Of a DNA stretch of 34,231 nucleotides, positions 12,283 through 25,029 are shown in pieces. Below the pieces are notes generated by a model. That model was not told where the DNA came from. It saw only the letters and a list, made by a program, of their open reading frames with translations, and searched no databases. This DNA is from an uncultured Synergistales bacterium. GTDB lineage: Bacteria; Synergistota; Synergistia; Synergistales; Aminobacteriaceae. Location: positions 1 through 34,231 of the forward strand of contig CAJOEW010000024.1 of assembly GCA_905233525.1 (NCBI GenBank), in the 5' to 3' direction. How positions within the stretch are numbered: the stretch's first letter is position 1; the number at the start of each line of letters is the position of its first letter. A program made the translations under genes and the position numbers.

Positions 12283-13563
12283 TTAAATTTCAAGGGCGTT
12301 TAAATTTTCTTCGACAGCCTGCCAGGTTTTTTTAGCAGCTCCTCCGAGAGTATTAAAATATTTTTTGCAAGCCGTTTGAGCTTTTTTACGTTCTTCAGCG
12401 CTTAAAGATTCTCCCCACGCGCGAGCCAATTCAAAATCACTGTGAACACATTGAGCGGCTTTCATTGTGTCCATTCGATCTGTATCAGGAAAATCTGTCA
12501 TGTAAGGTCCGTGAATTGTTTTCAATCCGAATAACGCAGGCTCAAAAGGATTCTGGCCTCCTTTGTCTACCAGGCTTCCACCAACAAAAACAGCGTCAGC
12601 CGCAGCATATAAACTAAATAACATTCCGATTTTATCGATTACAAGGACATCAAAATTTTTAGAGTCGCGTTCGTTTTCATCAGGAAGCTTTGAAAATAAT
12701 TCGGCCTGCAAATCTGAATAAGGTAACACCGAAGCTATAGACATTAAAGATCTTTCAGGATGTCTAGGAACTATAACGAGCTTTGATTTTTGAAATTTCT
12801 TACGCACCATCCTGAACGCTGATATTATTATTTCGTCTTCACCTTGATGAGTGCTGCCGGCTACAAATAATTTTCCGCCTTCTGTTTTCAGCCAGTCCCA
12901 TTCATTGCCTGAAGTCTCATCGCGGCGGTTTAATAACGTATCAACTTTACAATCGCCCGTAATTATAATTTTCTCGTCAGGTACTCCGAGTGTTAAAAAT
13001 TTTTCACGGTCTTCTTCAAATCTGACCATGAGTTTATTAAAACAAGATAATATATTTTTCCAGAACCAAGCAGTTTTTTTCAAGCGCTTGAAACTTTTTT
13101 CGGATATACGCCCGTTAGCAAGATATACCGGAATATTTTTGGAATGTAACTGCGTTAATAATTCCGGCCATAATTCCGTCTCCATTGTGATATAAATTTT
13201 AGGCTGTATATTTTCGATTGCGAGCTTAACAAATTTTTTATAATCCCATACACTGTAAATTATTTTATCAACAATGCCTGACAATAATTTTACGGCTGTG
13301 TCGCGTCCTGTTGGTGTTACTGTTGAAATTATGCACGGAAGATCGGAATTATTTTTTATTTCGCGAATCAATGAGCTTGCTGACTGGACTTCACCGACTG
13401 AAACGGCATGAACCCAAATACAATCAGACGGAACATTTTTTATAATGCCCATGCGTTCGAGAACATCATTTTTGTATTTGCGCTTTAAGATTTTCAAGCC
13501 TCCGAGATTAAAAAATGCGCCTGCCAAAAATCTGTATAACATCATCGTAAATTTAAATATCAT
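12283..13563 (-). CDS. waaA: 3-deoxy-D-manno-octulosonic acid (Kdo) transferase
   Basis: 426 residues. WaaA adds Kdo to the lipid A precursor at the cytoplasmic face of the inner membrane, a marker of an LPS-bearing outer membrane. A short hydrophobic N-terminal anchor (about 5-25) is followed by the signatures WVHAVSVGEVQS, METELWPELL, FVAGSTHQGEDE and VGGSLVDKGGQNPFEPA, in the expected order for this GT30 family. ATG at 13563 with GGAGG about 13 bases upstream. Divergent from metF, with a palindromic -10 element between them (13595-13602). Confidence 0.95.
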   Translation of the reverse strand: MIFKFTMMLYRFLAGAFFNLGGLKILKRKYKNDVLERMGIIKNVPSDCIWVHAVSVGEVQSASSLIREIKNNSDLPCIISTVTPTGRDTAVKLLSGIVDKIIYSVWDYKKFVKLAIENIQPKIYITMETELWPELLTQLHSKNIPVYLANGRISEKSFKRLKKTAWFWKNILSCFNKLMVRFEEDREKFLTLGVPDEKIIITGDCKVDTLLNRRDETSGNEWDWLKTEGGKLFVAGSTHQGEDEIIISAFRMVRKKFQKSKLVIVPRHPERSLMSIASVLPYSDLQAELFSKLPDENERDSKNFDVLVIDKIGMLFSLYAAADAVFVGGSLVDKGGQNPFEPALFGLKTIHGPYMTDFPDTDRMDTMKAAQCVHSDFELARAWGESLSAEERKKAQTACKKYFNTLGGAAKKTWQAVEENLNALEI

Positions 13564-15587: not shown

Positions 15588-16148
15588 ATGTTCGAGAGCT
15601 TAAAATATTTTTATGAAATTTTCACAGGCATTGAGAGCGGCGAACAGGAAAATTTATTGAGGCGTATATTGATTTTTGTATTAACAGCCTGTGAGATATT
15701 GCTTGTGTATAATTTTTATGAGCTTGAATTTTATGAACCTGATTATGATTTTTCAGTGCCTGTCATAAAACATAAAGCCGTTCAGAAAATAAAAATGCTT
15801 CATGACGCTGCGAAGCGATTATCAGTAAAAAATCATTCAGCGATGAATTTGGCCGTATCGATTAGGAATATGAATCTAAGATTATTTAATGATGCTGAAC
15901 CTGAAATCAAAGCAGAGATCACGCCCGCGGCTCCTGATAAGATAAAATTTTTTCAGCCTCCTCACATGGAGATTAAAGCAATAATGATCGCCGGCAAACA
16001 ACAAAGAGCGATCGTTAACACTGATTATAAAAACAATATCACGATCAGGACAGGCCAGAAATTTTTAAACGGGCGTGTTGTGAAAATAAATACAGCCGGT
16101 GTAATAATTGATTTTGGCGGCGTGCGAGTTATTTATAATGCAAAATAG
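15588..16148 (+). CDS. PilP/GspC-like pilus assembly protein
   Basis: 186 residues: a cytoplasmic N-terminus, one membrane helix (about 25-45), a linker, and a C-terminal small beta domain (about 125-186) with IKAIMIAGKQQRAIV, GQKFLNGRVVKI and GVIIDFGGVRVIY. This domain resembles the HR/PilP fold of GspC and PilP, which connects inner-membrane pilus parts to the secretin. It follows the PilO-like gene by 3 bases. Assignment is by architecture; other pil genes (M, N, Q) are not in this window. Its end overlaps the convergent F420-hydrogenase-beta-like gene by 20 bases. Confidence 0.55.
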   Translation: MFESLKYFYEIFTGIESGEQENLLRRILIFVLTACEILLVYNFYELEFYEPDYDFSVPVIKHKAVQKIKMLHDAAKRLSVKNHSAMNLAVSIRNMNLRLFNDAEPEIKAEITPAAPDKIKFFQPPHMEIKAIMIAGKQQRAIVNTDYKNNITIRTGQKFLNGRVVKINTAGVIIDFGGVRVIYNAK

Positions 16149-17352
16149 CTTTAACAAAATCGTACAGACCGAAAATTTTTAACAGCTTCCGCAATATTCT
16201 TTTAGGCAGTCTTAATACAAACATAATTGCACGTTTCGGAAGAGTATAAATTTTATGTTTAATCACGGCTTTGTGAAGTCCTTGATTTTTCAGCGCGTCA
16301 ATAAAAAGATCATAGCCTTTAATTTTTTCTCTAATCGAAAAATACGCGCCGTTATGTTCTACAGCAAATTCAGGATCGGCATCACTAAGAATAAAATCAT
16401 CGCGGTTAATCAAATTTACAAGCTCTTCACCTTTTTGCGAGCGCGTTAATAAAATTGATACGCCGTTTGAATTCCAGCCTGGCATATTTTGATTTAATCC
16501 CCAATAATCCGCGATAGTAATATTTGCCTGATGATTATTTCCTCTAGCGTTACACGAGAAACATTTTTGTTGAGCGAAATATGCAAACGCGTAACCGTAA
16601 TCAGATTTATAAAAATCAGTCGTAAAAATTTGTCCGTCCTGAAATTCCGCGCGTATAAAAAATGGTGTCCAGCCGTGTTTTTTGAATCTTACCGTGAAAT
16701 TTACGACGTGCGAATTAAATTTTGCTTCTAACTCGTTGATATAACTTGTATGAACTTCTTTAAGCGTGGCTCCGTAACAGATTAAATCAGCCGTGAATAA
16801 TTTTTCAGTATTTATTTTATTATGTTCAAGATAAGCATTAAGAGCCGCGATATCACAACCGAGTCCGAAAAATAAAACGTGTTTATTTAATTTTAAAATA
16901 TCGCCTGCAAATTTAAAGACTGGCTGATACTGACCGTCAATAAAAATTTTTTTATCAGTCGCAGCGTATTTTGAGCCTTTTAATTTTTGCAAGTCCTGAA
17001 TTTTTTCAACGCAGGCGAATTCAATCGATCTGCAGTCTTGTGAGTAAGCAGCACCAATAATTACGCCGTCACTAAATTTATTTAAAAATCCTTCTGAAAT
17101 TGCTGTAGCTGCTCCGCCTGAAGCTGAAGCCAATAATTTTTGAGTGTCTTTAAAATAACCTGAGTAAGCTTTTAAATTTGAGCAAAAGGATAGCGCGTTC
17201 TGCGTTCTGCGTTCTGCGTTCTGCGTTCTGCGTTCTGCGTTCTGCGTTCTGCGTGCGTTCTGCGTTCTGCGTTCTGCGTTCTGCGTTCTGCGTTCTGCGT
17301 TCTGCGTTCTTTCAGAACTATTATATGGCAAATTCAAAAAAATCAACCTCAA
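16129..17352 (-). CDS. F420 hydrogenase/dehydrogenase beta subunit-like protein with repeat-encoded N-terminus
   Basis: 407 residues. From about residue 60 it matches the FrhB/FdhB-like family often found in polysaccharide gene clusters: ASASGGAATAISEGFL, KGSKYAATD, FFGLGCDIAALNAYL, and a C-terminal CFSCNARGNNHQANITIADYWGL. The usual N-terminal 4Fe-4S domain is missing; in its place the protein begins MRLIFLNLPYNSSE followed by tandem RTQNAER peptides encoded by a 116-base heptamer tract. Starts available are TTG only (17352, 17346 or 17337); GAGG at 17347-17350 would serve the TTG at 17337. A change of one repeat unit would shift the frame, so expression is probably switchable. Its substrate is unknown. 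Confidence 0.7.
   Translation of the reverse strand: MRLIFLNLPYNSSERTQNAERRTQNAERRTQNARRTQNAERRTQNAERRTQNALSFCSNLKAYSGYFKDTQKLLASASGGAATAISEGFLNKFSDGVIIGAAYSQDCRSIEFACVEKIQDLQKLKGSKYAATDKKIFIDGQYQPVFKFAGDILKLNKHVLFFGLGCDIAALNAYLEHNKINTEKLFTADLICYGATLKEVHTSYINELEAKFNSHVVNFTVRFKKHGWTPFFIRAEFQDGQIFTTDFYKSDYGYAFAYFAQQKCFSCNARGNNHQANITIADYWGLNQNMPGWNSNGVSILLTRSQKGEELVNLINRDDFILSDADPEFAVEHNGAYFSIREKIKGYDLFIDALKNQGLHKAVIKHKIYTLPKRAIMFVLRLPKRILRKLLKIFGLYDFVKAILHYK
17195..17310. repeat. heptanucleotide tandem repeat, 8 + 8 copies
   Basis: The unit GCGTTCT (AGAACGC on the coding minus strand) is repeated eight times without error at 17195-17250, interrupted by GCGT at 17251-17254, then repeated eight more times at 17255-17310. 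It lies inside the 5' part of the F420-hydrogenase-beta-like reading frame. Seven is not a multiple of three, so slipped-strand gain or loss of a unit changes the reading frame. Confidence 0.97.
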
Positions 17353-18202: not shown

Positions 18203-20029
18203 TTAGCTTAATAAATTATTTTCTCCTGCGAATTTTACGAACGCGTTTATAATATTTTCGCTGCGTTCTTTTATATTATCCTCGTTAAAATCATCAAGCT
18301 GATTCGCCAGATAAACCAGCTCAAAATTTCGTGTACCGCGTTTCTTAGCAGCGTTTTTAGATTTTTTATTACCGATATAGCATTTTATTTTATCCTGAAA
18401 TCTATAATCAGACGCGCGGATATTTATATTTTTCTCAAGCAGAGCTTTATTACCGATTGATTCAAGCAATGCCGGATTATTTATTTCACGTCTCTTTGAA
18501 TATATATGCTCGATTTCAAAATTCGTATCAGCCGGTAAAATTTCCTGGCTATAATCATTTGAAGTCCATAGAGCTAAAAATTTTTTTGTTACAGATACGC
18601 TGGCTTTTAATTTAAAATCGTCTTTACTGTCATGATACATCCACCAGGCTAAAATTGATTTCGTGATAGGTTTTCGGTTAGTAAATTCGAATTTCTTCAG
18701 CGTTGATATTAAATCCTGAGACTTAAATAAATGCAATCCGAATGACACATTTTTATTATTTATAATTTCATTCATGGCCGAATTCATACGCGATTTTATT
18801 ATATTTACAGAGCCTTTAACGAAATTTGACACAAGCAAAAACGCGGCAGTCTTGCTCAGAAATTTATAAAATTCGTCATCGTCTAACATGTTATCGGCGT
18901 TTCTTTTGTGCAAAAAATATACTGACACGAGATTAGGCCATGAGGTATTAGGCACGTAATTTAATACCAGCAGCATTTTTAACACGCGTTCAGAAAATCT
19001 ATAACTGTTTTGAATGTCGACATCTTCCCAAAATTTTAACAAGGCCATTATATTTTGAAATGTAATATTATATTTTGGAGCCTTAAATAATTCGTAATCG
19101 TTAATGCTGTAAAAAGCTCTTAAATTTTCGTTAGAACCGCCTGCAATTTTATTTAATGCGCGCTCGTAATACATATATCTTGAAAATATTTCGTCGCGAG
19201 GATTCCTGTTAGTGTTATTAAAAATTTTCCTGCAGGTGTCTTCAAGTGACTTCCATTGAGCAATAAAAAATCCGGCTGCATTATCTGCGAGATATGATTT
19301 ATATAACTGTGTTTTAAAAATATCTGAATCAGAAAGCGGCCGGCCTCTTTGATTTATAGTTGAAAATATTGTGAACGCTGACTCTTGTTTATCAGCTTCG
19401 ATCGGCAATAAAATGCAGTTGTTAATAATTCTTTTAGGCATGTACAAAAAAAATTCAGATTTGATTTTCTCATCGTTATAATAATTTTTAAGCTCGCTTA
19501 TTTTATCCTGGAATAAATTATAATTTCTGGCGTATCTGCTTTTAAAATTTTTATCGAGCTTACCCGTTATAAGTATTCTCGAAAATTCCTCGCGCTCGTC
19601 ATCGGTAGCAACTTCTGAAATAAATCTAGGCTCAAAAAAATTTGGGCTGTTAGCAACGTCATTTTCTCTCGGCTTCCAAATGCATTTACCGGTTTCATAT
19701 TTTATATTACGGGCGTTAGGATCTTCATCATCAAAAGCAGCATAAAACGCACGAAGCAGTAAAGATAACGTTATAATCCTCTGTTGACCGTCAATAATTT
19801 CAGATTTGCGGCCATGCTTGCACGTTACAATAGCACCTAAAAAATAATGCTCGTAAATATTAAAATTCATGCTGTTATTATTTGGAAATGCAAACGCGAA
19901 AATATCATCCCAAAGCTGATTACATTCGTTGTCGTCCCATTCGTATTGCCTTTGATAATCAGGAATAAGGAACTCGCTGTTACTGAATAAGTCGAAAATA
20001 TTTTTGCTGTCAACTTTTAGCTCGGCCAT
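18203..20029 (-). CDS. DUF262/DUF1524 GmrSD-type restriction protein
   Basis: 608 residues in one chain. The N-terminal DUF262 (GmrS-like) domain shows FLIPDYQRQYEW and the nucleotide-linked EIIDGQQRIITLSLL. The C-terminal DUF1524 (GmrD-like) part has FEIEHIYSKRR and SIGNKALLEKNINIRASDY, the His-containing nuclease region. Characterised GmrSD proteins are type IV restriction enzymes that cut phage DNA with modified cytosines, so a phage-defence role is likely by family; the target here is unknown. No methyltransferase gene accompanies it, as expected for type IV. AAGGA lies about 12 bases before the ATG. It heads a unit with the mgtC-family gene. Confidence 0.8.
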   Translation of the reverse strand: MAELKVDSKNIFDLFSNSEFLIPDYQRQYEWDDNECNQLWDDIFAFAFPNNNSMNFNIYEHYFLGAIVTCKHGRKSEIIDGQQRIITLSLLLRAFYAAFDDEDPNARNIKYETGKCIWKPRENDVANSPNFFEPRFISEVATDDEREEFSRILITGKLDKNFKSRYARNYNLFQDKISELKNYYNDEKIKSEFFLYMPKRIINNCILLPIEADKQESAFTIFSTINQRGRPLSDSDIFKTQLYKSYLADNAAGFFIAQWKSLEDTCRKIFNNTNRNPRDEIFSRYMYYERALNKIAGGSNENLRAFYSINDYELFKAPKYNITFQNIMALLKFWEDVDIQNSYRFSERVLKMLLVLNYVPNTSWPNLVSVYFLHKRNADNMLDDDEFYKFLSKTAAFLLVSNFVKGSVNIIKSRMNSAMNEIINNKNVSFGLHLFKSQDLISTLKKFEFTNRKPITKSILAWWMYHDSKDDFKLKASVSVTKKFLALWTSNDYSQEILPADTNFEIEHIYSKRREINNPALLESIGNKALLEKNINIRASDYRFQDKIKCYIGNKKSKNAAKKRGTRNFELVYLANQLDDFNEDNIKERSENIINAFVKFAGENNLLS

Positions 20030-24094: not shown

Positions 24095-25029
24095 ATGTTT
24101 AAGAAGCTAAAGAAAAAATTTAACACGTTCGGTAGTTTGTTACGCGATGGCGATTGGTATGGAATTACAAATAGGTTTCTGAAATACGCTCCGGATTTTT
24201 TATTGGGTACAGACAGAGTCGAATTCATGCGCAAAAGATGTTATAACCGTCTCAAAAAGCAATACGGCTCCTTCGTTGATCAGTATAATTACAAATAATT
24301 TGGTGGTTATGGCTGCAAGGTTTTGACAACGCGCCCGAAATTTGTAAAGCTTGTTTCAGGTCGTGGCGCAAATGGTATCCGGATTACAAGATTGTTATAC
24401 TAGACGAAGAAAATATTTCCGATTATATTTCCATTCCAGATTACATAACAAAAAAATTTCACGATAAAAAAATGCTTCCTGCTCATTACAGTGATATATT
24501 GCGTCTGCAATTATTATACAAGTACGGCGGAATATGGGCGGATTCAACTGTTTTTGTTACAGGGCGCAGACCGGAATTTGAAAATTTTTTAAACGTGCCT
24601 TTTTTTATGTTCAATCATGACGGAAATTTTGAAGAAGGTTTATTTAGTGACTGGATGAAATCTTGGTTCAATAGTGCATATTATATCTATGATAATTATT
24701 TTATAGTTTCGGATAAAGACCATCCAATCGTAAAACTTATACTTGATTTACATTATCAATATTGGCGCGATTATAATCGTCCGATTGATTATTTTATATT
24801 TCACATGATGCTAAAGATGGTGTGCGAAAAGTATAAAGATATTTCCGACGCTGTACCGAAATTTCCAAATCACAAGACGCTCATACTCGGAGTACATTTA
24901 ACTGACGAATATTCTGAAAGTTTTGTGAATAAGGCAATAAACATAAGCGATTTTCATAAGCTCAGTTATAAATCAAAAGAAACGCCTTCAGAAAACAGCA
25001 TTTACTCGCACATCATAAGAAGCGTGTGA
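24095..25029 (+). pseudogene. capsular polysaccharide-type glycosyltransferase, frameshifted
   Basis: Two frames make one protein. The first (24095-24298; AGGAGG 7 bases before ATG) gives 66-67 residues of the N-terminus, ending DQYNYK-stop. The second frame, shifted by one base, picks up at about 24297 with IIWWLWLQGFDNAPEICKAC, continues through LDEENISDYISIPDYI and SDILRLQLLYKYGGIWADS, and ends at 25029. Together they would give about 310 residues of the Caps_synth/glycosyltransferase-sugar family (Asp-containing GGIWADSTV motif), which adds sugars to surface polysaccharide. One inserted base near 24296 (in TACAAATAATTTGG) restores the frame. It is either a recent loss or a sequencing error; the rest of the frame is intact, so decay is not old. 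Confidence 0.8.

Follow-up and report, generated by a model that had tools for sequence, protein, structure and literature searches.

The window, by which we mean the whole stretch of 34,231 nucleotides analysed here, comes from an uncultured Synergistales bacterium of the Aminobacteriaceae. On its minus strand lies a gene for an FrhB/FdhB-like protein, matched by PF04432 only (E 1.3e-16), with a tract of 7-bp repeats at the 5´ end (Table 1). Tandem Repeats Finder reports it as the sole heptamer array of the window, with period 7 and consensus GCGTTCT, and reading of the sequence gives eight perfect units at 17195-17250 and eight more at 17255-17310. The earlier note had described just this, two eight-unit runs split by GCGT inside a coding region. 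In 200 Markov-shuffled replicates of the window no array of three or more units arose, therefore the tract is not due to chance. In the 155 kb of the same genome that were examined, every array of at least three perfect heptamers belongs to a locus returned by our repeat or leader searches. The GCGT interruption may make slippage slower in this copy. Two genes upstream of the repeat-bearing gene there is a gene for a GmrSD-type (type IV restriction) endonuclease (18203-20029, minus strand). A short capsular polysaccharide synthesis protein (PF05704) is encoded at 24472-25029 on the plus strand; its profile match runs from position 110 of 278, so that the gene is perhaps 5´-truncated.

Table 1. 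Features of the repeat-bearing gene (window coordinates)
Feature	Position	Strand	Remark
Putative phase-variable gene, FrhB/FdhB-like protein	16129..17337	-	402 aa when ON
FrhB_FdhB_C domain (PF04432)	16393..16884	-	residues 157-320 of the ORF starting at 17352
Heptamer tract	17195..17310	-	116 bp; two runs of 8 units with 4 bp between them; coding-strand unit AGAACGC
GCGT interruption	17251..17254	-	one unit minus 3 bp, between the two eight-unit runs
Conserved leader GGTTGATTTTTTTGAATTTGCCATATAAT	17320..17348	-	also at the arrays of C10, C9 and C5 (contigs of this genome)
Most likely TTG start of the ON protein	17335..17337	-	GAGG spacing as for the starts at other array loci
Putative Shine-Dalgarno sequence GAGG	17347..17350	-	9 nt 5´ of the TTG

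The start codon of the gene is probably this TTG at 17337 and not an ATG. The ON protein, read from it on the minus strand, has the order M-NLPYNSSE-(repeat)-LSFCSNLKAYSGYF... Because a 7-bp repeat gives one heptapeptide whichever frame is used, the tract can be read through in each of the three frames, always as (RTQNAER)n without a stop. Behind the tract just one frame is open. At the present count it runs into the FrhB/FdhB domain and gives 402 aa, while loss of one unit leaves 52 aa and gain of one unit 64 aa; in the assembled genome the gene is ON. Frame arithmetic thus bears out what had been claimed before, namely that the current frame enters the domain, that the second ends after ...TRYPFAQI, that the third closes soon after the tract (about 14 codons past it), and that one repeat state in three is ON. 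A translation start 3´ of the tract had been named as evidence that would speak against a switch. The first in-frame candidate there, a TTG, lies 21 codons in and lacks a Shine-Dalgarno sequence, and no in-frame start of the window gene downstream of the tract has one; to judge from the sequence, translation begins upstream of the repeat. SSR contingency loci are recognized by a perfect repeat, of a unit length not divisible by 3, in the 5´ part of the coding region, and by a full protein in one frame with early stops in the others. The window gene shows both properties.

Close orthologs of the gene are present in 13 members of the genus (45-69% identity), and their alignments begin at query residue 3-8, in most of them right behind the tract. 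Orthologs that have no array at the start open with M..FDCSGLKAYSGYF, preceded by AAAGGAG, therefore the tract of the window has been inserted between the start codon and the native N-terminus. Other orthologs carry arrays of CAACGAG, GGAGTCA, GGACTCA or GGAATCA at the same site. To judge from these sequences, the type of repeat has turned over, yet a frame-shifting repeat has been kept in this gene. Three of them (G034, G022 and G027) have no heptamer array and carry 7-10 G near codon 36, where they are frameshifted; this looks like a second, independent repeat switch.

One could imagine that the array is a feature of the protein, a variable N-terminal extension, basic and rich in Arg and Gln, by which the enzyme is tuned, and that changes of frame are only a by-product. 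All units seen are indeed stop-free, and most of the heptapeptides are rich in Arg, Gln and Ser (RTQNAER, DQRSEIR, GVRSQES, GLRTQDS) and close to RLKTQDS of NeuO. A purely structural repeat should, however, keep to multiples of 21 bp, whereas in the assemblies the majority of copies is out of frame, and the G032 ortholog, which has almost no repeat, is in frame and reads through. We consider such a role very improbable.

The same genome harbors four further heptamer loci at 5´ ends of other genes, on contigs C10, C9, C5 and C22. The one on C10 again has the unit AGAACGC (9.7 units) and belongs to a gene that resembles O-antigen polymerases (Wzy), an assignment that is weak, as it consists of one NCBIfam Wzy match far under the cut-off and of membrane-protein character. 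When the genome was searched with the leader of the window, it was found on C10, on C9 (in front of a GT2 gene) and on C5. The heptamer on both C9 and C5 is GATCAGA, and the C5 contig stops inside its array (C5:49401). A search for GATCAGA added C22, where a GT4 gene has 7 units and an ATG leader of its own. Judged from the best start, the window gene is ON and the genes on C10, C9 and C22 are OFF; C9 has a second TTG in frame, poorly spaced. A sixth array, GGCTCAC x4.4 on C20, precedes a methyltransferase-like gene with its own ribosome site. The searches in this genome went by leader and by repeat unit, and arrays built from further units may have escaped them.

We surveyed 43 genomes of the genus by searches for GGTTGACA-N-TATAAT and for GGANTCA arrays. 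About 50 array loci were found in at least 26 of them, some cut by contig ends. Nearly all share one leader: a Shine-Dalgarno sequence, TTGAC(A), a start codon (ATG, GTG or TTG), two to seven codons, ATAAT and the array, which in a typical locus is followed by a protein with a Pfam domain that begins within few residues. In the GGANTCA set, which was picked without use of the leader, 16 loci could be read on the upstream side, and all of them have ATAAT immediately 5´ of the array. The distance from start to array is 17, 23 or 26 nt, with mostly constant phase. The array-bearing genes encode acyltransferase-3, GT2, GT4, GT8 and GT11 enzymes, methyltransferases and FrhB-like proteins; nearly all assignable ones other than the window gene are of glycosyltransferase, acyltransferase-3, methyltransferase or polymerase-like type. 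These glycan enzymes support the earlier suggestion that switching may alter the cell surface; by analogy, the FrhB-like enzyme, too, may have a role there. Outside the genus a match was obtained in one genome only (G074). A collection of named genomes, scanned once with the leader and once with the protein, gave no match, and no leader-plus-array combination occurs in the contigs of a public viral collection; one contig of that collection has an AGAACGC array at 12624-12651, without the leader, which looks unrelated. At G015:C32 two neighbouring loci, both behind the leader, carry pentamer arrays, AGAAC x12.6 and AGAGC x10.6, the first in front of an acyltransferase-3 gene. Several contigs of the genus, including C5, end at or inside arrays, as expected since repeats break assemblies. 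Short-read assemblies therefore under-count such loci and split their genes.

The leader TTGA...TATAAT resembles a promoter with a short spacer of 15 nt, and a transcriptional effect is possible. If it were a promoter from which the transcript starts at the array, repeat number might set the mRNA level, as in hmwA of Haemophilus, where the hmw1A SSR overlaps the P2 -10 box and lies in the 5´UTR (PMC8262952). In favor of this, TTGA-N15-TATAAT stands directly 5´ of the array in loci of the C10/C9 type, and arrays follow promoter-like sites with 18-nt spacing at C20 of the same genome, at G032:C29 and at G062:C124. The "spacer" of the leader nevertheless varies (12, 13, 15, 19 or 21 nt), its -10-like box is often not TATAAT, and the start codon stays in phase with ATAAT and the array. 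Moreover, a separate TGATATAAT lies 5´ of the leader at C9 and C5, and no ribosome-site-backed start exists behind the tract of the window. Transcriptional tuning is in our opinion an improbable explanation of the window tract. The leader as a sigma-70 promoter, first suspected from TTGA...TATAAT, was likewise down-weighted, given its 12-21 nt spacing and the kept phase of the start codon; array loci found independently of the leader have ATAAT and often no TATAAT.

In most array loci TTGAC(A) is conserved between Shine-Dalgarno sequence and start codon; it might be left over from a promoter, take part in extended anti-SD pairing or serve as some other signal. Arrays differ in unit sequence from locus to locus and between species, while their unit length (mostly 7) and their position are fixed, and some arrays directly follow promoter -10 boxes. 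One may speculate that the leader is a portable phase-variation cassette, and that a process that goes further than ordinary slippage has founded new heptamer arrays again and again directly behind its ATAAT. We regard this as rather unlikely.

Where start and gene frame could be assigned (31 loci of the genus, a few starts being chosen by hand), about 9 are ON. This share is the one third expected if the frame were irrelevant, and alone it is no proof of switching. Since one third ON would follow even without any effect of the leader frame, we tested for selection on the genes behind the arrays. Between the window gene and its closest ortholog (G036) the dN/dS ratio is 0.14; it is 0.19 for G010 (OFF) against G030, 0.12 for G062 against G017 (OFF) and 0.12 for G063 (ON) against G008 (OFF). 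OFF copies are thus intact and under purifying selection (0.12-0.19), so they are switched off and not decayed. Their low ratios further imply that they are still used at other times, as reversible switching predicts, and a gene kept functional though often OFF is a further mark of SSR contingency loci. Two closed frames out of three, and the OFF state of most array loci as assembled, might by themselves suggest a decaying pseudogene in which the array expanded neutrally. Whole domains are nevertheless open behind the arrays, the above ratios apply to the window gene and to pairs that include OFF copies, and orthologs of the window gene keep acquiring frame-shifting repeats of different sequence. 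Decay is already contradicted by these data and we give it next to no credence. Copy numbers of the same unit also differ between orthologs of different species: at least 16.9 against 8.7 units with flanks 88% identical, 11.1 against 4.4 units at 81% identity and, in an acyltransferase pair, 12.0 against 6.4 units at 90-93% identity.

We therefore suggest, with high confidence, that the tract is a contingency locus, a frame-based ON/OFF switch of the FrhB/FdhB-like gene and one of a genus-wide set. The earlier note had read it as such a switch, and frame arithmetic, the native N-terminus behind the tract, repeat turnover in orthologs and selection on OFF copies all speak for it. Translation would begin at the TTG and pass through the heptamers into the enzyme. 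Slipped-strand mispairing at replication would gain or lose 7-bp units, and since 7 is not a multiple of 3, every single-unit step shifts the frame. The enzyme would be made in one state of three, and a peptide of 52-64 residues in the other two. Arrays that follow the leader of ribosome site, start and ATAAT would act likewise on glycan-modifying genes, at whose 5´ ends they lie, in the same genome and in 25 or more further species of the genus. If several of these genes switched independently, one clone could display many combinations of surface glycans.

Switching by frame-shifting repeats is a classical finding in a few pathogens. What we see in this uncultured genus looks like a large set of switches of this kind that extends through the lineage and acts on glycan genes; one leader recurs, the units are heptamers instead of tetramers, and they turn over rapidly. 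Our literature searches found no paper on phase variation together with Synergistetes or Synergistota, and none on a heptamer leader of this type. If the switch is confirmed, long-read metagenomes would show the repeat states directly, and one could thus measure how variable the surface of unculturable bacteria is; many intact genes would then be missed or misnamed in short-read assemblies and annotations of the genus.

Reports of SSRs with units of 6-9 nt were described as rare (PMC4692102). The nearest known case is neuO, the O-acetyltransferase gene of the E. coli K1 prophage CUS-3, in which 19 AAGACTC units directly follow ATG-TTA. There are several similarities. In both systems a 7-bp array lies right behind the start codon, the full protein is read in one frame of three (neuO is ON only at unit counts divisible by three, PMC13001214) and the target is, in the genus presumably, a surface glycan. 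neuO is OFF in 65.6% of 64 genomes (PMC13001214), compared with about 70% of scorable loci in the genus. The repeat peptide RLKTQDS of NeuO resembles GLRTQDS of the genus, and AAGACTC is one base apart from AGGACTC, a common unit type here; until shown otherwise, we take this resemblance as convergence. There are also differences. neuO is a single prophage gene, while in the genus the design recurs on the chromosome, at many genes unrelated to each other, with one leader in common and with units that differ. The product of the window gene is FrhB-like (PF04432 only) and no O-acetyltransferase homologous to NeuO, and the repeat unit is AGAACGC, AGGACTC being used by relatives.

Heptamer SSRs also stand at the hmw1A and hmw2A promoters of Haemophilus influenzae (ATCTTTC), where copy number governs expression of surface features (PMC8262952, PMC2651432). 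The hmwA repeats overlap the P2 -10 box and lie in the 5´UTR (PMC8262952), and their effect is graded and exerted at the level of transcription, whereas the array of the window is coding and frame-based. A few arrays of the genus do resemble transcriptional phase variation of the hmwA type. At C20:11300-13250 of the same genome, at G032:C29 and at G062:C124 they lie in the 5´UTR, directly behind TTGACA...TATAAT with 18-nt spacing, and the methyltransferase- or glycosyltransferase-like genes behind them have their own ribosome site and start; the array of the window lacks this arrangement. The tetranucleotide loci of H. influenzae LPS are similar in that scattered genes for surface glycans have SSRs at or just 3´ of their translation start and are switched independently by frame (PMC2651432). 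They differ in unit length, 4 against 7, and the leader of Shine-Dalgarno sequence, TTGAC, start and ATAAT belongs to the genus described here.
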